DNA of 12,207 nt. It comes from Nitrospinae bacterium RIFCSPLOWO2_12_FULL_45_22. GTDB taxonomy: Bacteria > 2-12-FULL-45-22. Every line of letters starts with the position of its first letter. The first letter of the stretch is position 1. The notes below the pieces were generated by a model. The model worked only from the letters and a program-made list of their open reading frames with translations, was not told the DNA's origin and ran no database searches. The DNA lies in assembly GCA_001803565.1 (NCBI GenBank), contig MHDQ01000301.1:1-12207 (forward strand), given 5' to 3'. The position numbers and the translations under genes were made by a program. Positions 3,494-12,207 of the stretch are shown one piece after another.

Positions 3494-4765
3494 TTATTCT
3501 CTGAAGAGGATCTCTAAAAAGGCCTCTAGCCGGGTCTTTATCTGCCCCTCGGCAAAGTCATCAGGATCGGCACTATTTGATTCAAAGATCAATACCGGCA
3601 ATTGGCATTCTTCCTGGAGCCATTGCATAATATCCAATCGGCCATTGGATAGTCCTTTACAGCCCCGATTAGAATGGCATATGACCCCATCTATCTTATA
3701 TTCCTTAATCATCGTCTTAAAAATGCGCTGATGAACCTGATAGGTTAAGGCAGAGGCCCTATCCACCATATATTCCGTCATGGTCCTTAGCGCCTGGGGA
3801 TAGGTGGACGGCTCTACTAAAGGCTTCTTTTCGGCCCCTGCTTTTTCGCCGTCTATCCCCATGGTTTTATAAGCCGTGCCCCACATGCTGGTATAAGGAG
3901 AGGCCACAAATATGGCTCCCAGTTTCTCCAATTGATTGAACATAGAGAGGTTATACCACATAGGTATATTATCCCATAGTAATCGTTTCTTCTCTGGGAT
4001 AATCGCTCCTATCCCCTCTTCTACCCGTTCTCTTACCTCATCTCTTAACTTTTCATAAAAGGTTACCGCTTCGGGGGCCCCTCTCAATAGAAAAGATGGG
4101 GTCATCAGGGTGAGGAGGCTTTTAAAGTCCAGAGGGCTAGGCACGGTTTTGCAATACTCCAGGATATCATCCCAGAGGGCCAATGCGCGCTGGGTATTGA
4201 TAACTGATTCTATAAACCGCTCTTCATCTAGTTTCCTTCCCGTATTCTCTTCTAAGAAGGCGATTAGTCGTTTCACCATGGCCATGTAGTACTCTATATG
4301 ATAATCCTCTACTATACCGCGGGGTATCAGGGGTGTCTCCATTATAAATAGGGGACATCCTACTAAGCGGGCGGCATTCTCCCACCATTTGAAATGTGTA
4401 CTACAACCGCAACGGTTCTCTATAATAAAATCTGGCCGGGGAAATTCCCCCAAGTGGCTTTTATTAGTTAAAACGGACCCGATAAAATTACGGCTATAGG
4501 CACATAGGTCCCGTGCATAGCCTGCCTGCTCAGTAGCCTTTAATAGCTGTCGTGCCAGGGCGGCATCAAAAGCGACAGTAGCACCGTACGGCTCACCATA
4601 AACCGCTACAATATCGAAGGCACGGATCAATTCTGGTGGCATACTTGCCCCCATCCATCCTAGCTTTTTACCCTCTTTTTTTGCCTGTAGGATATTGCTA
4701 TAAAAATTTATGGTCAAGGCTTTACATTCATTCCAACTTTTTAACGGTAATTTATTTTGAGCCAT
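3494..4765 (-). CDS. 2-hydroxyacyl-CoA dehydratase/BcrB-like subunit
   Basis: This 423-residue protein belongs to the HGD-D superfamily (2-hydroxyglutaryl-CoA dehydratase component D and ATP-dependent benzoyl-CoA reductase subunits). These carry [4Fe-4S] clusters and take low-potential electrons from an ATP-driven activator. Cysteines likely to hold the cluster are C88 in RDLCAYSRNFIG, C119/C121 in ENRCGCSTHFKWW and C363/C369 in VICHSNRGCKG. The end, SADPDDFAEGQIKTRLEAF, is typical of the larger (HgdA/BcrB-type) subunit, and the length fits. The start lies 4 nt after the stop of the upstream subunit, with AGGAGAATAGGAAA giving its ribosome binding site, so the two are translationally coupled. 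No activator (HgdC/BcrA-type ASKHA ATPase) gene is present in the window. Superfamily is firm; the substrate is not determinable. Confidence 0.9.
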   Translation of the reverse strand: MAQNKLPLKSWNECKALTINFYSNILQAKKEGKKLGWMGASMPPELIRAFDIVAVYGEPYGATVAFDAALARQLLKATEQAGYARDLCAYSRNFIGSVLTNKSHLGEFPRPDFIIENRCGCSTHFKWWENAARLVGCPLFIMETPLIPRGIVEDYHIEYYMAMVKRLIAFLEENTGRKLDEERFIESVINTQRALALWDDILEYCKTVPSPLDFKSLLTLMTPSFLLRGAPEAVTFYEKLRDEVRERVEEGIGAIIPEKKRLLWDNIPMWYNLSMFNQLEKLGAIFVASPYTSMWGTAYKTMGIDGEKAGAEKKPLVEPSTYPQALRTMTEYMVDRASALTYQVHQRIFKTMIKEYKIDGVICHSNRGCKGLSNGRLDIMQWLQEECQLPVLIFESNSADPDDFAEGQIKTRLEAFLEILFRE

Positions 4766-4769
4766 TTTC

Positions 4770-5891
4770 CTATTCTCCTATCCTTTCAATCAAGGCCTCA
4801 GCCTGGGTTCTAATCTCCTCTTCGGAGAAGTTAGGGTCGATCTCCAGCACCATGGATATCAATCCCTTTTCTTTAAATAATTTGTTCAGATAGGGATACT
4901 CCCACTCATGGGGATCACAGAACTTTTGGTGTAAAATTATTATACCCTGAACCCTTAAATGCTCGGCTAGTTCAAGAATATGATTATAACGGCGCTGGGG
5001 TGGGTGTTTCACCGGGCAGGGGACCTTATTGAGATAGCGTTGCGCAATAGATTCCATGGGGTCTTCTCCTCGGGGGGTATCTTCCCATATATAGCGGCTC
5101 CCATTACAGATGTCATCGGCAACAATTATTGCCCCTGCTTCTTCAATTAGCTGGTAAACACGGGGATTATCGACTTCGCTCCCAACTATCATCAATCTTA
5201 TCTGACCATTAGGACTACGTGGGGCATAAGAGAGGTTCGATTCTTCCAATTCCTGTAATAATTGCCTGAGGAGGTTATTATGTTCTTCTTTAGGCATGAC
5301 CATACCGGCCAGTAGTACAGTCAAAACCTGCCATCCCCAGATAGGTGAAGGGATTCTAGATCGTAGTTCATAAAGTCTCCTGAGAAGAGAACGATGGGTA
5401 TCATAAATTTCAATGGCCTTCCACAATGCCTCGTCAGTGATAGTCACCTTTAAAGCTTTCTGGAGGGAGGCTTGAAACTTTCTTAGTTCCTGAGTATAAA
5501 ACCTTTTTGCCTCGGGTAGGTCTATCCGGCTTGGCATATCGATAAGTTCGACATATAGATCAGGTTTATTTCTGGCCCAGATATTAAAAATACCACGCTG
5601 GTGATCACAGGCATAGGCATATACCAGGCCGTCTAGATAATCATACTCCCCTCTTAGGGCCTGATCAAGGCAACTCCGAGAAAAGGCACAATAAAATGAC
5701 TGGAAATGGCCATCTGCTATTGAAGGAGGGGTCTGATCACTCATGATTCTAACAGGGATGGCTCTGGAGGCATAGATGATCTCCTCTGGGGTATAGTTAC
5801 ATATATACCCTATGATCTTTCGGCCCTCAGTCCGCCATTGCTGGGCTAACTGGTGTCTATTGTTCAATCTCTCATAAAAATTGTCTATCAT
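4770..5891 (-). CDS. 2-hydroxyacyl-CoA dehydratase/BcrC-like subunit
   Basis: This 373-residue protein is the smaller HgdB/BcrC-type partner of the HGD-D superfamily. Expected cluster cysteines are visible: C68 in SFYCAFSRSCLDQAL, C95 in YACDHQRGIFNIW and C325 in LHQKFCDPHEWEYPYL, a block highly characteristic of this subunit, followed by VLEIDPNF. C31 lies in IGYICNYTPEE near the N-terminus. It is the first gene of a two-gene minus-strand operon; the ATG at 5891 is preceded by GAAGG. Together with the downstream 423-residue partner it would form the heterodimer that removes water from a 2-hydroxyacyl-CoA, or reduces an aromatic acyl-CoA. It could also be one of the uncharacterised relatives found without an activator. 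Substrate is unknown. Confidence 0.9.
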   Translation of the reverse strand: MIDNFYERLNNRHQLAQQWRTEGRKIIGYICNYTPEEIIYASRAIPVRIMSDQTPPSIADGHFQSFYCAFSRSCLDQALRGEYDYLDGLVYAYACDHQRGIFNIWARNKPDLYVELIDMPSRIDLPEAKRFYTQELRKFQASLQKALKVTITDEALWKAIEIYDTHRSLLRRLYELRSRIPSPIWGWQVLTVLLAGMVMPKEEHNNLLRQLLQELEESNLSYAPRSPNGQIRLMIVGSEVDNPRVYQLIEEAGAIIVADDICNGSRYIWEDTPRGEDPMESIAQRYLNKVPCPVKHPPQRRYNHILELAEHLRVQGIIILHQKFCDPHEWEYPYLNKLFKEKGLISMVLEIDPNFSEEEIRTQAEALIERIGE

Positions 5892-6729: not shown

Positions 6730-7005
6730 ATGAAATTCTGGCGGACACCATTAGATGCAGATAAAATTAAGGTTCCTCATGGAGAAACTTATGTTATCAA
6801 GGAACGGTGTAAGGGGTGCGGATTTTGTGTAGAATTTTGTCCTAAAAGAGCCTTAAGGCTCTCGGATGAATTCAACATCAAGGGATATCACCCGCCGGAA
6901 ATGATCGGTAAGGATGAATGTGTCAACTGCGGCCTATGTGAGATGATATGCCCTGAATTTGCTATATACTGCCTGGAAGAAGAGGAGGTGCAAGTTGAAG
7001 GCTGA
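6730..7005 (+). CDS. korD: 2-oxoacid:ferredoxin oxidoreductase delta subunit (2[4Fe-4S] ferredoxin)
   Basis: This 91-residue protein is a two-cluster ferredoxin: C27-x2-C30-x2-C33-x3-C37 followed by P, and C64-x2-C67-x2-C70-x3-C74 followed by P. It passes electrons from the catalytic subunits to free ferredoxin. The N-terminal region (KFWRTPLDADKIKVPHGE) and the acidic tail match the KorD-type delta subunit, and it comes first in the operon as in other korDABC layouts. GGGGGA precedes the ATG. The gene overlaps korA by 11 nt, implying coupled translation. The identity as an Fe-S electron carrier is certain; the Kor assignment rests on the operon. Confidence 0.92.
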   Translation: MKFWRTPLDADKIKVPHGETYVIKERCKGCGFCVEFCPKRALRLSDEFNIKGYHPPEMIGKDECVNCGLCEMICPEFAIYCLEEEEVQVEG

Positions 7006-8152
7006 TCCGAAAGGGGTATTAACCGGAGAGCATTATCTGGATGGTGATTTTGCCTGTGCTGAAGGGGCATTAGCGGCTGGCTGCCGCTTTTTTGCTGGCT
7101 ATCCTATCACTCCCTCAACCGAGGTTGCTGAACGGTTTTCCGAGAGGATACCCGAGGTAGGCGGTATCTTCATCCAGATGGAAGATGAGATGGCCTCTAT
7201 GAATGCTATCCTGGGCGCTTCCTGGGGTGGGGTCAAAACGATGACTTCTACTTCGGGCCCTGGCTTTAGCTTAATGATGGAGAATATAGGATTGGGAGCC
7301 ATGATGGAGGTTCCCTGCGTAGTGGTTAATGTCCAGCGGGGAGGCCCATCTACGGGCCTGCCCACCATGGTAGGCCAGGCAGATATGATGCAAGCCCGCT
7401 GGGGTTCTCACGGTGATTATGAAATTATTGCCTTATCCCCTAACTCTCCTCAAGAATGTTTCTACGTTGCTATCGAGGCCTTTAATCTAGCGGAAAAATA
7501 CCGTGTGCCAGTCTTTATTATGATGGATGAATGCGTGGGCCATATGACCGAGAAGGTGATAATCCCACCCGCGGAAGAAATTGAACTTTATCCTAGAAGG
7601 CTTACAAACAGTCCTCCCGCAGAATATTTGCCCTACATGCCGGAAGACGACCTGGTCCCCTCCATGATAATAGCCGGTCAGGGATATAAGATCCATACCA
7701 CTGGCCTTACGCATGATGAGAGAGGTTACCCGGTAATGACGGCCGAGGCCCAGGAGAAACTGGTGCACCGCCTGATAAATAAGATAAGGTTGAATGCTGA
7801 CCATATTATTCATATAGAAGAAGAAGATACCGAGGGGGCTGAGGTAGTGGTGGTCTCTTATGGTATCAGCAGCCGGGTGGCCCTGGCGGCCATAGATGAA
7901 GCACGGGCTGCGGGGATTAGGGTAGGCCGGTTGAGACTTATAACGGTCTGGCCTTTCCCAGAAAAGAGGATCAGGGAATTAGCCCCAAAGGTAAAGGCTT
8001 TTGTGGTTCCCGAGATAAATTATGGCCAGATGGTATTGGAAGTAGAGAGGTGTGCTGCTGGCCAGGCTAAGACAATCTTGGTGTCCCATGGCGGAGGAGA
8101 CGTGCATAATCCCCAGGATATCCTGGAAGCTATAAAGGAGTCAATAAAATGA
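6995..8152 (+). CDS. korA: 2-oxoacid:ferredoxin oxidoreductase alpha subunit
   Basis: This 385-residue protein starts at TTG (6995), chosen because GGAGGTG lies 5 nt upstream inside korD; an ATG 36 nt earlier in the same frame adds twelve residues (MLYTAWKKRRCK) unlike the family. Family motifs are YPITPSTE (36-43), MEDEMAS (62-68), TSTSGPGFSLM (84-94) and QRGGPSTGLPT (114-124), followed by the middle part and a C-terminal domain ending in GGGDVHNPQDILEAI. Together with korB it oxidises a 2-oxoacid with CoA to the acyl-CoA, CO2 and reduced ferredoxin. 2-Oxoglutarate is the usual substrate for this type, but branched-chain 2-oxoacid (VOR) enzymes are close relatives. The last codons overlap the korB start (ATGA). 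Confidence 0.93.
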   Translation: MKADPKGVLTGEHYLDGDFACAEGALAAGCRFFAGYPITPSTEVAERFSERIPEVGGIFIQMEDEMASMNAILGASWGGVKTMTSTSGPGFSLMMENIGLGAMMEVPCVVVNVQRGGPSTGLPTMVGQADMMQARWGSHGDYEIIALSPNSPQECFYVAIEAFNLAEKYRVPVFIMMDECVGHMTEKVIIPPAEEIELYPRRLTNSPPAEYLPYMPEDDLVPSMIIAGQGYKIHTTGLTHDERGYPVMTAEAQEKLVHRLINKIRLNADHIIHIEEEDTEGAEVVVVSYGISSRVALAAIDEARAAGIRVGRLRLITVWPFPEKRIRELAPKVKAFVVPEINYGQMVLEVERCAAGQAKTILVSHGGGDVHNPQDILEAIKESIK

Positions 8153-9012
8153 TAACCAAGGAACACCCTATGACACCATTGCTTAGGATGGATAGAATCC
8201 CGCACATCTGGTGTCCTACCTGTGGAATAGGTACTGCCGTGAGTTGCTTTGCGGCAGCTTTAAAGCAGAACGAAATCCCATTAGAGAAGGTAGCTATTGT
8301 CTCCGGTATCGGCTGCACGGGCCGGGTAGCCGGGTATATGAAGGTTGATTCTTTCCATACCACCCACGGCCGGGCAATACCTTTTGCCACCGGATTAAAA
8401 TTGGCCCGGCCAGAGATGAAAATCGTGGTATTTAGCGGGGATGGTGACCTTTTTGCTATCGGAGGGAACCACTTTATCCATGCTGCCCGCCGGAATATGG
8501 ATTTAACAGTCATATGCGTGAATAATTTCATTTACGGTATGACTGGTGGCCAGCTTGCCCCTACTACACCCCTTTCGGCCAAGAGTACTACCTCACCCTA
8601 TGGGAATTATGAGCACCCTTTTAACCTCCCCCATCTTGCTGCCTCCTGTGGCGCGACTTATGTAGCCCGCTGGACCGCCCTGCATATCCGCCGCTTAACC
8701 AATTCTATGTCTGAAGCCCTGAATAAAAAGGGGTTCTCTTTTATAGAAGTGATAGCCCCTTGTTCTACCGTTTATGCCAGGAGAAACCGCCTGGGTAGCG
8801 GGCTTGACCTGATGAAATTCTATCATGATAATTGCGAGATCAAGAATGGGGCCAACCCTGAAGAAGCAGATATTGGGTTTCAATCAAAGATCATAGTAGG
8901 GAAATTTGTGGATAAAGAGAAACCTAGTTTCATAGATAATATGCATGTTGGGTTGAAGAGGGCGCTAGGAGACAAATACATTCCGTATGGAGGAGACGAT
9001 GGAGCAAAGTAG
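8149..9012 (+). CDS. korB: 2-oxoacid:ferredoxin oxidoreductase beta subunit (TPP-binding)
   Basis: This 287-residue protein is the thiamine-diphosphate-binding subunit. Evidence: the TPP motif GDGD (97-100) continues to NNFIYGMTGGQ (125-135). The four cysteines that hold one [4Fe-4S] cluster in this family are at C22 and C25 (WCPTCGIGT), C56 (GIGCTG) and C205 (VIAPCSTVYA). GGHFxxAxR-type spacing is also present (GGNHFIHAARRN). Length and order match KorB. It begins in ATGA at the korA stop, with AAGGAG upstream, and its end overlaps korC. It forms the active site with korA. Substrate preference cannot be settled from the sequence. Confidence 0.94.
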   Translation: MITKEHPMTPLLRMDRIPHIWCPTCGIGTAVSCFAAALKQNEIPLEKVAIVSGIGCTGRVAGYMKVDSFHTTHGRAIPFATGLKLARPEMKIVVFSGDGDLFAIGGNHFIHAARRNMDLTVICVNNFIYGMTGGQLAPTTPLSAKSTTSPYGNYEHPFNLPHLAASCGATYVARWTALHIRRLTNSMSEALNKKGFSFIEVIAPCSTVYARRNRLGSGLDLMKFYHDNCEIKNGANPEEADIGFQSKIIVGKFVDKEKPSFIDNMHVGLKRALGDKYIPYGGDDGAK

Positions 9013-9559
9013 GACAGAGATCAAGATAACAGGTTTTGGTGGGCAAGGAGTTATTCTGGCGGCATATATTATCGGTAAGGCGGCGGCCCTTTTTGATAAA
9101 AAAGAGGCTACCCTTACCCAGAGCTTCGGGCCCGAGGCCCGTGGTGGGGCCTGCAGTGCCCAAATGGTTATCTCTAACTCCAAGGTGCTCTACCCTTATG
9201 TCAAACGCCCACAAATCCTGGTATGCCTATCGCAAGAGGCCTATAATAAGTTTGAACCTGAATTAATCTCTGGTGGTTTATTAATAATAGAGAAGGACCT
9301 GGTAAAGCCTAAGCCCGCCGAGAACGGCATCCAGCTATTGGCTATTCCTGCAACCAGGATTGCTGAAGAATTAGGCCGGCGGATGGTACTGAATATTGTG
9401 ACAGTGGGGTTTTTTACTGCGGTTGCTGATGTAGTGGGTGAAGAAGCAGTTCGGGGAGCGATAAAGGATTCTGTACCTAAAGGCACAGAAGATTTGAACC
9501 TCAAGGCCTTTGAGCGTGGGTTCCAGTACGGCAAGAATCTTCGGGAACACGGCGAATAA
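8999..9559 (+). CDS. korC: 2-oxoacid:ferredoxin oxidoreductase gamma subunit
   Basis: This 186-residue protein has the gamma-subunit signature: GFGGQGV (12-18), where the loop contacts CoA in related enzymes, and SFGPEARGGACSAQMVIS (42-59). Length is typical. The ATG at 8999 is preferred over one at 8987 because GGAGGAG lies 3-5 nt ahead of it and the earlier start has no ribosome binding site; the reading frame overlaps the end of korB by 14 nt. It completes the korDABC set, and all four genes overlap, which supports equal production of the subunits. No terminator is seen after it, so read-through into the HdrA-like gene is possible. Confidence 0.92.
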   Translation: MEQSRTEIKITGFGGQGVILAAYIIGKAAALFDKKEATLTQSFGPEARGGACSAQMVISNSKVLYPYVKRPQILVCLSQEAYNKFEPELISGGLLIIEKDLVKPKPAENGIQLLAIPATRIAEELGRRMVLNIVTVGFFTAVADVVGEEAVRGAIKDSVPKGTEDLNLKAFERGFQYGKNLREHGE

Positions 9560-9660: not shown

Positions 9661-9777
9661 GCCACAGAGTACACAGAGACCACAGGGTACGTAACTCAAG
9701 GCTTTTAGCCTTGATCAACCCTAAAGGGTTGAGTTACATGTTTTTTAATCCTCAGTGTCCTCTGTACCCTCCGTGGC
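9661..9777. mobile_element. MITE-like palindromic element with inner two-hairpin cruciform
   Basis: The ends are inverted repeats: GCCACAGAG (9661-9669) and the complement GCCACGGAG of 9769-9777 match at 8 of 9, continuing with related ACAGAG-type text inward. Inside, GTAACTCAA (9691-9699) pairs perfectly with TTGAGTTAC (9729-9737), enclosing two hairpins: CAAGGCT/AGCCTTG (9697-9713) and CAACCC/GGGTTG (9716-9731). The whole could fold as a three-way junction. GCCACAGAG-ACACAGAG repeats are common in many bacterial genomes (from memory). There is no gene inside, so movement would need an outside transposase. It sits between korC and the HdrA-like gene. Confidence 0.65.
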
Positions 9778-9812: not shown

Positions 9813-12207
9813 ATGACAGGCAGTGTATTGGTAATTGGTGGAGGCATTGCGGGCTTAGAGGCAGCCCTTGACCTGGCAGATTCAGGAATAGAAGTAGATC
9901 TGGTAGAAAAATCCCCGACCCTGGGGGGGCATATGGCCCAATGGGATAAGACCTTAGTAGGACAGTTTCCTGCCCTATGGGCTTTAACACCTAAACTGCT
10001 GGCGGCTGCCAGGAATCCCCGTATCCATATCTTGACCAATTCAGAAATTACCCAGGTCTCGGGAGAAAAAGGGGCCTTTAAAGTTACGGTCACTCGACAT
10101 CCTCGCTTTGTGGATGAAGATAAATGCCGGGGCTGCGGTATTTGTGAGAAGCAATGTCCGGTAATAACGGATAATGGCCTCAATACCTTCCAGGAGCGGA
10201 AGGCCATATATCTCCCCTACCCTAAAGCAGTCCCTTTTACTTATGCGATTGATAAACGCGGTATTTCTCCCTGTAAAAATGCCTGCCCGGTAGAAACACC
10301 TGCTCAAGGTTATATAGCCTTGATCGCCCAGGGTAGGTTAGAAGAGGCCCTAGAACTAATTAGAGAGACCAATCCTTTTCCCGGTGTATGTGGCCGGGTC
10401 TGTACCCACCCCTGTGAGAGTAAATGCAAAAGGGGGGAGATTGATAAGCCAGTAGCCATCTGTAGCCTAAAGAGAGTGGTGGCTGATTATGAAAGACAAA
10501 AGGAACTGAAAGATGGGAAAATACCCCAGGCTTTCCCACAACCCAACGGAGAAAAGGTTGCTATTATCGGCTCAGGCCCAGCCGGCTTAACCGCGGCCGA
10601 TGATTTAGCCAAATGGGGCTACCAGGTCACGGTCTTTGAGGAAGCACCGGTAGCAGGCGGGATGCTTGCCCTCGGCATACCGGAGTTCCGGCTACCGCGA
10701 GAGATACTGAATTATGAGATAGACCTGATTAAGGCCCGGGGTGTAGAAATCAAGACCAACACGGCTATTGGTAAAGACCTCCAACTCCAGGACCTCAAAG
10801 GCCAGGGCTATAAAGCTATATTTATGGCCATTGGTGCCCATAAAGGACTAAAGCTAGGGATACCGGGGGAGGATGAATATGAAGGATTCCTCGATTGTAT
10901 AACCTTTTTGCGGGCAGCAAACTTGGGCAAGAAAGAGAAGCCCGGGGATAAAGTCATAGTTATTGGTGGTGGTAATGCTGCGATAGATGCCTCCAGAACC
11001 GCCCTTCGCCTGGGCGCTAAAGCGGTGAATATAGTCTATCGGCGCTCCAGACAGGAGATGCCTGCCAATGAGGCCGAGATCGAGGAGGCGGAGTTTGAAG
11101 GGGTAAAAATTCATTACCTGGCGGCCCCTACCAAAATCTTAGGCAAGAATGGCCGGGTTACCGGCATGGAATCTATACAGACCCGTTTAGGAGAACCGGA
11201 TAGCAGCGGCCGCCGCAGACCGGTCCCGATTGAAGGCTCAGAATTTATTATTGATGCCGATGTTATCATCCCCGCTATAAGCCAGGAGCCAGATATCTCC
11301 TTCCTGCCTGAAGGGCATGGCCTGACCATCAGCAAATGGAACTCCTTTGTAGTAGACCCTGTTACCCTGGCCACTAATCAAGAAGGAAGCTTCGCCGGGG
11401 GTGATGCAGTAACCGGGCCGACTACGGTTATCGAGGCTATTGCTGCCGGCCACCGGGCCGCTATCTCCATTGACCGATATTTCAAGGGAGAAGACCTTAA
11501 AGAAGGGAGAGAAGGGGCGAGATTAAGTCCAGTAGAAACCATTGATTGGAAAATAAGCGACGAGATTAAAAGGCGGCTCCGGCAAGAGATGCCTAAAATA
11601 TCCTTAGAGGATAGGGCCCTGAGCTTTGACGAAGTAGAGTTGGGCTTTGCTAGAGAAACGGCTATAGAAGAGGCTAAACGTTGCCTTAACTGCGGTATCT
11701 GTAGCGAATGCCTCGCCTGTCAAAAAGCCTGTATTGACCTAAAGGCCATCCAACATGACCAAAAGCGCCAGGATAGCCAGCTTAATATCGGTGCCATAGT
11801 AGTAGCTACTGGCTTCGTACATCAGCCGGATCATGGTACCCTTTTTGAAAAACAGTATAACAATATCATAAGCCAAATAGACTTAGAAAGGATGACCTCT
11901 TCCCTGGGCCAGTTGAAGAGGCCATCGGACGGCAAGCCCCCCCAGAGGGTGGTCTTCCTCCCAGCCCTGGGTAATAATGGGATGGGTGACCCCTCGGCTA
12001 AGATTAATTACCTGGCTGCACTAAAGAACGCTATTACTATCAAAGAGCAAAATCCTGCTATCAGCGAAATACTTGTCCTTTGTCCGGATAAAGATAGCAA
12101 AAATAAGGGCTACGAAACCCTTATCAATCGGGCAAATAGCTACCCAGAGATCAAATTAGTAGATATAAAACCCTTATCAGAAAAGGACTTACAAGAAACA
12201 CCCACCG
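9813..12207 (+). CDS. HdrA-GltD fusion flavo-iron-sulfur protein, C-terminus cut by window edge
   Basis: 798 codons are open to the window end with no stop, from the ATG at 9813 (GGAG 7 nt upstream). Domains: HdrA-type FAD fold GGGIAG (9-14); a [4Fe-4S] motif CRGCGICEKQC (105-115); HdrA text YLPYPKAVP; then an inserted GltD/NADPH-glutamate-synthase-beta-like unit. That has C154, C158, C193, C197, C201, C205 and C217, a second FAD fold GSGPAG (253-258), an NAD(P)-type GGGNAA (385-390) and GGDA (529-532). A six-cysteine run CLNCGICSECLACQKAC (624-640) leads back into HdrA sequence. HdrA enzymes split or merge electron pairs at FAD. Unusually, the two HdrA cysteine motifs are replaced (49-63 and 713-744). 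Context suggests exchange of ferredoxin electrons from KorDABC with NAD(P)H; HdrB/C partners, if any, lie beyond the window. Confidence 0.9.
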   Translation, partial: MTGSVLVIGGGIAGLEAALDLADSGIEVDLVEKSPTLGGHMAQWDKTLVGQFPALWALTPKLLAAARNPRIHILTNSEITQVSGEKGAFKVTVTRHPRFVDEDKCRGCGICEKQCPVITDNGLNTFQERKAIYLPYPKAVPFTYAIDKRGISPCKNACPVETPAQGYIALIAQGRLEEALELIRETNPFPGVCGRVCTHPCESKCKRGEIDKPVAICSLKRVVADYERQKELKDGKIPQAFPQPNGEKVAIIGSGPAGLTAADDLAKWGYQVTVFEEAPVAGGMLALGIPEFRLPREILNYEIDLIKARGVEIKTNTAIGKDLQLQDLKGQGYKAIFMAIGAHKGLKLGIPGEDEYEGFLDCITFLRAANLGKKEKPGDKVIVIGGGNAAIDASRTALRLGAKAVNIVYRRSRQEMPANEAEIEEAEFEGVKIHYLAAPTKILGKNGRVTGMESIQTRLGEPDSSGRRRPVPIEGSEFIIDADVIIPAISQEPDISFLPEGHGLTISKWNSFVVDPVTLATNQEGSFAGGDAVTGPTTVIEAIAAGHRAAISIDRYFKGEDLKEGREGARLSPVETIDWKISDEIKRRLRQEMPKISLEDRALSFDEVELGFARETAIEEAKRCLNCGICSECLACQKACIDLKAIQHDQKRQDSQLNIGAIVVATGFVHQPDHGTLFEKQYNNIISQIDLERMTSSLGQLKRPSDGKPPQRVVFLPALGNNGMGDPSAKINYLAALKNAITIKEQNPAISEILVLCPDKDSKNKGYETLINRANSYPEIKLVDIKPLSEKDLQETPT

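Follow-up and report, generated by a model that had tools for sequence, protein, structure and literature searches.

A bacterial type III HdrA that lacks the HA4 ligands and retains its GltD module

The HdrA–GltD protein encoded at the end of the window (the whole stretch of DNA analysed here, 12,207 bases) has lost every cysteine at two motifs of the HdrA family. Judged from sequence, this loss belongs to a divergence focused on the HdrA flavin module. It seems to reflect a single lineage of an uncultured bacterium in which that flavin domain is being rewired or retired, rather than a known new family.

Architecture of the window protein

The window is the whole of contig C301, exactly 12207 bases, from genome G000 (3.67 Mb, 321 contigs, 85% complete). 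The open reading frame at 9813..12206 on the forward strand comprises 798 stop-free codons and runs off the contig end. Similar to HdrA, its product has an FAD-binding, thioredoxin-reductase-like domain with a ferredoxin domain inserted into it. The FAD-binding N half (9813..10094, +), with its GGGIAG motif, is followed by the first half of the ferredoxin domain (10125..10157, +; C105, C108, C111 and C115 retained), a GltD/NfnB-type NAD(P)H-FAD module (10263..11492, +; the domain spans residues about 151–560), a GltD-linked RCLNC segment with the second half of the ferredoxin domain (11625..11732, +; C624–C640 retained) and the strongly divergent thioredoxin-reductase-like C half of HdrA (11769..12206, +). 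The GltD part contains FAD-binding and NAD(P)H-binding folds, the cysteines that ligate its [4Fe-4S] clusters and the equivalent of NfnB R187. Because the GltD domain sits inside HdrA, we assign the gene (9813..12207, +) to type III HdrA; its 3′ end is missing at the contig end, so that the C-terminal end of the protein falls past C301, and the module lacks the N-terminal HA3 domain. With HdrA halves, ferredoxin cysteines and GltD/NfnB-type domain all identified, the HdrA–GltD architecture given in a preliminary description of this DNA was borne out. In a structure comparison, residues 150–640 matched GltD, Nfn and Stn folds. As the GltD part dominates the results, the only HdrA chain among the 50 matches listed was 6tjr, itself aligned to that part.

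A korDABC-like 2-oxoacid:ferredoxin oxidoreductase (6730..9559, +) lies directly 5′ of hdrA in the same orientation, separated from it by about 250 bases. The gap 5′ of hdrA contains an inverted repeat with 15-base arms (9691–9737), adjoining CCACAGAG-type repeats. Elsewhere in the window, two HGD-D family subunits (3494–5891, −) resemble BzdO and BzdN of the benzoyl-CoA reductase/2-hydroxyacyl-CoA dehydratase type.

Cysteine loss at both motifs

Reference positions are those of 5odc_A HdrA, counted off the alignment, in which motif 1 reads D193-C194-S-I-C197 and motif 2 carries C386, C399, C403 and C404. The residues quoted in the preliminary description are correct: QFPALWALTPK at 51–61 (motif 1; 9963..9995, +) and FLPALGNNGMGDPSAKINYLAALKNA at 715–740 (motif 2; 11955..12032, +). 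Its claim of total cysteine loss also stands. In motif 1, C194 is replaced by P53 (CCT, 9969–9971) and C197 by W56 (TGG, 9978–9980); in motif 2, C386, C399, C403 and C404 are replaced by A718, S728, N732 and Y733, and the HA4 ligand set is gone. The same holds for the reported retention of ferredoxin-type and GltD-type cysteines, as the 19 other cysteines comprise those of the ferredoxin domain (105, 108, 111 and 115; 624–640), those of the GltD domain (154, 158, 193, 197, 201 and 205, plus two more) and C757. This last residue, which had been suggested as a possible occupant of the cluster site, was rejected as a substitute ligand: it aligns with an aromatic position (Y in 31 of 48 homologues, F in 10 of 48) and cannot stand in for the ligands. 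Selenocysteine at the C197 position was likewise rejected, the codon being TGG, not TGA.

The window protein therefore has neither the four HA4-ligating cysteines of motif 2 nor, with W56, the Cys197 ligand for the N-terminal cluster of a partner HdrA, and it does have the flavin-N5 residues, as K738 (12024..12026, +; K409 of 5odc HdrA) and E692 (11886..11888, +; E356). Given the missing HA4 cysteines, we file it as a divergent HdrA homologue, not a canonical HdrA. On the alignment, the near-universal presence of these cysteines in the 48 homologues places their loss beyond chance. A literature search found no description of total HA4-ligand loss in a type III HdrA.

The motifs serve different clusters

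We take C386, C399, C403 and C404 to be the HA4 ligands, an assignment that partly follows the 5odc work and is supported by their invariance and by their retention in the second HdrA module of fused proteins. In such second modules, motif 1 is wholly missing, yet four of four motif-2 cysteines are present. HA4, beside the flavin, hands the high-potential electron toward HdrBC in solved complexes (PMC12350162). Cys197 is located in the thioredoxin-reductase domain, ligates the N-terminal cluster of the partner HdrA copy and is variable among accepted HdrA classes (PMC9012536); by count, the second cysteine of DCSIC is C197, consistent with this placement. The earlier view that both motifs hold one shared cluster is thus not upheld: Cys197 is reported to serve the other copy's N-terminal cluster, and modules without motif 1 keep the motif-2 cysteines, which indicates that the two motifs serve different clusters. 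In the flavin site, K409 contacts flavin N5, and E356 holds K409 (PMC6405883, PMC12054007).

Among sampled relatives, the loss maps to one branch

Relatives were collected by a GTDB-wide peptide-pattern scan and from samples of about 1,500 genomes, which yielded 49 comparable HdrA–GltD proteins, 48 of them with sequence across the cysteine sites. C386, C399, C403 and C404 are each present in all 48; C197 is found in 47, the exception being a frame read through TGA at that codon, and C194 in 44. The four proteins that lost C194 and retained C197 (L061, L015, L048 and L166) have their two halves in separate genes. Two later loci, L165 and L167, outside the count of 48, retain motif 2 as well. 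In split double HdrAs (L061/L075, L014, L015, L048 and L166), one gene encodes HdrA-N and GltD, and the next gene encodes HdrA-C and the second HdrA; C194 is missing from this split version and C197 is retained.

A second cysteine-less member was found neither in the GTDB-wide pattern scan nor in the about 1,500 sampled genomes, in which the nearest phyla are represented by only one or two genomes each. The coherent cysteine-less lineage that had been suggested is therefore not upheld in this sample: neighbouring groups of the GltD tree retain HA4, and, as far as sampling reaches, the window protein stands isolated among homologues that keep their cysteines, the outcome that the description itself had named as counting against its proposal. 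In these alignments and trees, the cysteine loss maps to the window protein's own branch, and its sister groups retain the cysteines.

Divergence is focused on the HdrA flavin module

Near-invariant positions are retained at 16 of 23 in the FAD N part, 9 of 9 in ferredoxin part one, 73 of 76 in GltD, 14 of 15 in ferredoxin part two and only 12 of 26 in the HdrA C half. Across residues 661–790, mean identity to the family is 25.9%, the lowest of 46 proteins (family median, 49.3%); by contrast, the GltD part averages 54.5%, the third highest of 46. Trees built separately with FastTree gave a similar picture. In the HdrA tree the window terminal branch (1.17; median 0.29) is the longest, and in the GltD tree it is ordinary (0.30; median 0.27), the protein clustering with the Aminicenantes double HdrA and the split-gene group with a local support of 0.89.

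The lost near-invariant residues of the HdrA C half include R722, R761 and the SGP loop; GGGIAG, E692, R693, G699 and K738 are retained in the HdrA parts. Because the equivalents of the flavin-contacting E356 and K409 remain, FAD at this site is still plausible. Codon usage signals coding as strongly in the diverged part as outside it, and there is no stop or frameshift. In the predicted structure the fold is retained and the helix bearing K738 is intact. The pocket loops at 46–53, 669–680, 720–724 and 763–765 are modelled at low confidence; a control model of the Aminicenantes homologue L109 from the identical sequence set had higher confidence in most of these loops.

A probable continuation on contig C95

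Contig C95 of the same genome (L070) begins within an HdrA module that corresponds to the second half of a double HdrA (L125, from about residue 960), and among the contig starts of the genome it alone suits as the remainder of the window gene; about 155 residues would be missing between the two contigs. The HdrA module on C95 is followed by MvhD, HdrCB and an HdrA–MvhD with an in-frame TGA, DCSI(TGA)ILGPK. In genome G102 (L103) the order is GltD–HdrA–HdrA, MvhD, HdrCB, another HdrCB-like gene and a split HdrA, and its HdrA C part is 71% identical to the C95 counterpart. As C95 opens in a second HdrA module and G102 has a matching gene order, C301 and C95 are likely adjacent in the genome.

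The second HdrA module on C95 (L070 3–1628) has T in place of E356 and Q in place of K409, residues that are present in 11 of 11 other second modules, and it keeps all four HA4 cysteines. With HA4 missing from the window module, each half of the probable fusion has lost what the other keeps. The selenocysteine (Sec)-HdrA of C95 retains E356, K409 and the HA4 cysteines. Selenocysteine HdrA is already known. In L070 (3540–6059), L014, L048, L075 and L103, a stop falls on the Cys197 codon itself, immediately before ILxPK, and breaks the HdrA frame; in L070 this stop reads TGA. A search for a SECIS-like element near the C95 TGA gave no Rfam match.

A flavin module proposed to lie off the HdrBC path

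One explanation, to which we give an even chance, is that the window protein is a type III HdrA, linked to NAD(P)H, in which the first flavin lies off the HdrBC path, within a complex that retains one complete HdrA. This proposal starts from the observed sequence changes, conservation pattern and neighbouring genes; we infer the contig linkage, the cofactor content and the direction of electron flow. The window protein would probably form the N-terminal half of a double-HdrA fusion continuing on C95, itself probably part of an HdrA(Sec)–HdrCB–MvhD complex. Conservation of the GltD and ferredoxin parts suggests that the protein trades electrons with NAD(P)H and relays them one at a time: the exchange would take place at the GltD FAD, and the GltD Fe-S clusters would pass the electrons on via the retained inserted-ferredoxin clusters. 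The first HdrA site should be unable to bind HA4 and hence to send a high-potential electron to HdrC/HdrB, and the module should be unable to give the Cys197 ligand to its partner's N-terminal cluster. No route from the first HdrA flavin to HdrBC is known other than through HA4. With HA4 and Cys197 gone, the first flavin module is most likely off the HdrBC path, as a scaffold or simple relay, and the intact selenocysteine HdrA would carry out bifurcation. The GltD residues R293 (R187 of TmNfnB) and K220 (K170 of StnC) are in place, but the arginine does not decide whether the GltD FAD bifurcates, because the non-bifurcating StnC has it too. Retention of the E356 and K409 equivalents, read from the alignment, argues against this explanation, as it is at odds with a plain loss of flavin function, and certainty is limited by the evidence being one truncated gene from a single MAG.

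The alternatives differ in what they make of the same pocket. The HdrA module may be decaying under relaxed constraint, with no redox role and only the GltD–ferredoxin part mattering, as its longest HdrA branch beside a normal GltD branch and its low-confidence pocket loops, mostly better in the L109 control, might suggest; however, the frame is free of stops and frameshifts, its coding signature is intact, and E692 and K738 are retained, and we consider this somewhat unlikely. That the HdrA FAD still bifurcates, as the preliminary description proposed, and does so through an exit other than HA4, such as a partner subunit's cluster, seems improbable to us from the sequence. The GGGIAG motif and the E356 and K409 equivalents have survived where half of the conserved positions have not, and the K738 helix is intact in the predicted structure, but the lost half includes R722, R761 and the SGP loop, no second member of such a form was found in the sample, and solved complexes use HA4 as their exit to HdrBC. 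Erosion around the site (12 of 26 positions retained) argues more for loss of bifurcation than for its persistence. Comparably doubtful is a division of labour in which the first module would supply the flavin (E356/K409) and the second HA4, making one site over two modules, or in which both would have abandoned bifurcation, with NAD(P)H entering via GltD.

Two further possibilities we rate as very improbable. Motif 2 lies within the final 260 bases of the contig, where an assembly or sequencing artefact could arise, but the in-frame family alignment continues to the contig end, motif 1 is lost 2.2 kb inland, and the changes are many independent substitutions, not a single indel. A cluster bound through non-cysteine ligands could make use of S728 and N732 at two ligand positions; A718 and Y733 at the remaining two, and the shortening and alteration of an otherwise invariant loop at the site, speak against it. 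A first flavin module off the HdrBC path remains our best explanation.

Comparison with known systems

Iron-sulfur cluster loss is known to be frequent in HdrA, so the principle is not new. HA4 is regarded as a fixture of HdrA, through which high-potential electrons leave the flavin. With the flavin-N5 pair present and HA4 absent, a natural HdrA of this kind would offer a direct way to ask which parts bifurcation requires, and would exemplify the rewiring of a bifurcating site with its NAD(P)H module kept.

For QmoA cofactors, a literature search gave nothing decisive. The sHdrA of Hyphomicrobium denitrificans (6tjr) shares the HdrA fold with the window protein and has no GltD; it is reportedly non-bifurcating and is said to retain its cluster, unlike the window protein. 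The Aminicenantes HdrA–GltD–HdrA proteins L109, L119 and L126 (1476 aa) have the same architecture and are 52% identical over the shared region, but their DCxMC and CVGSRD..CSSVCC motifs are intact.

StnC of Sporomusa ovata also combines a GltD module with a trailing cluster segment and passes NADPH electrons to another module, but its system lacks HdrA and the bifurcating partner is HydBC-like. In that system the GltD fold merely shuttles NADPH electrons to the attached bifurcating module, and an inactive domain is kept for assembly (PMC10482914); by analogy, StnC may be a precedent for the shuttle role in our preferred explanation. In Moorella HdrABC–MvhD–MetFV, two HdrA modules, each lacking some parts, are likewise expected to pair (PMC9012536); here, the module that has no N-terminal domain is missing Cys197 and HA4 as well, and the putative second module lacks E356 and K409 instead. 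The type III HdrA of ANME-1 (HdrA9–HdrA11; PMC12054007, PMC9012536) resembles the window protein in having a GltD/NfnB domain within its ferredoxin insert and in keeping K409 and E356, whereas the window protein is bacterial, is devoid of the motif-2 cysteines and probably continues into a second HdrA.
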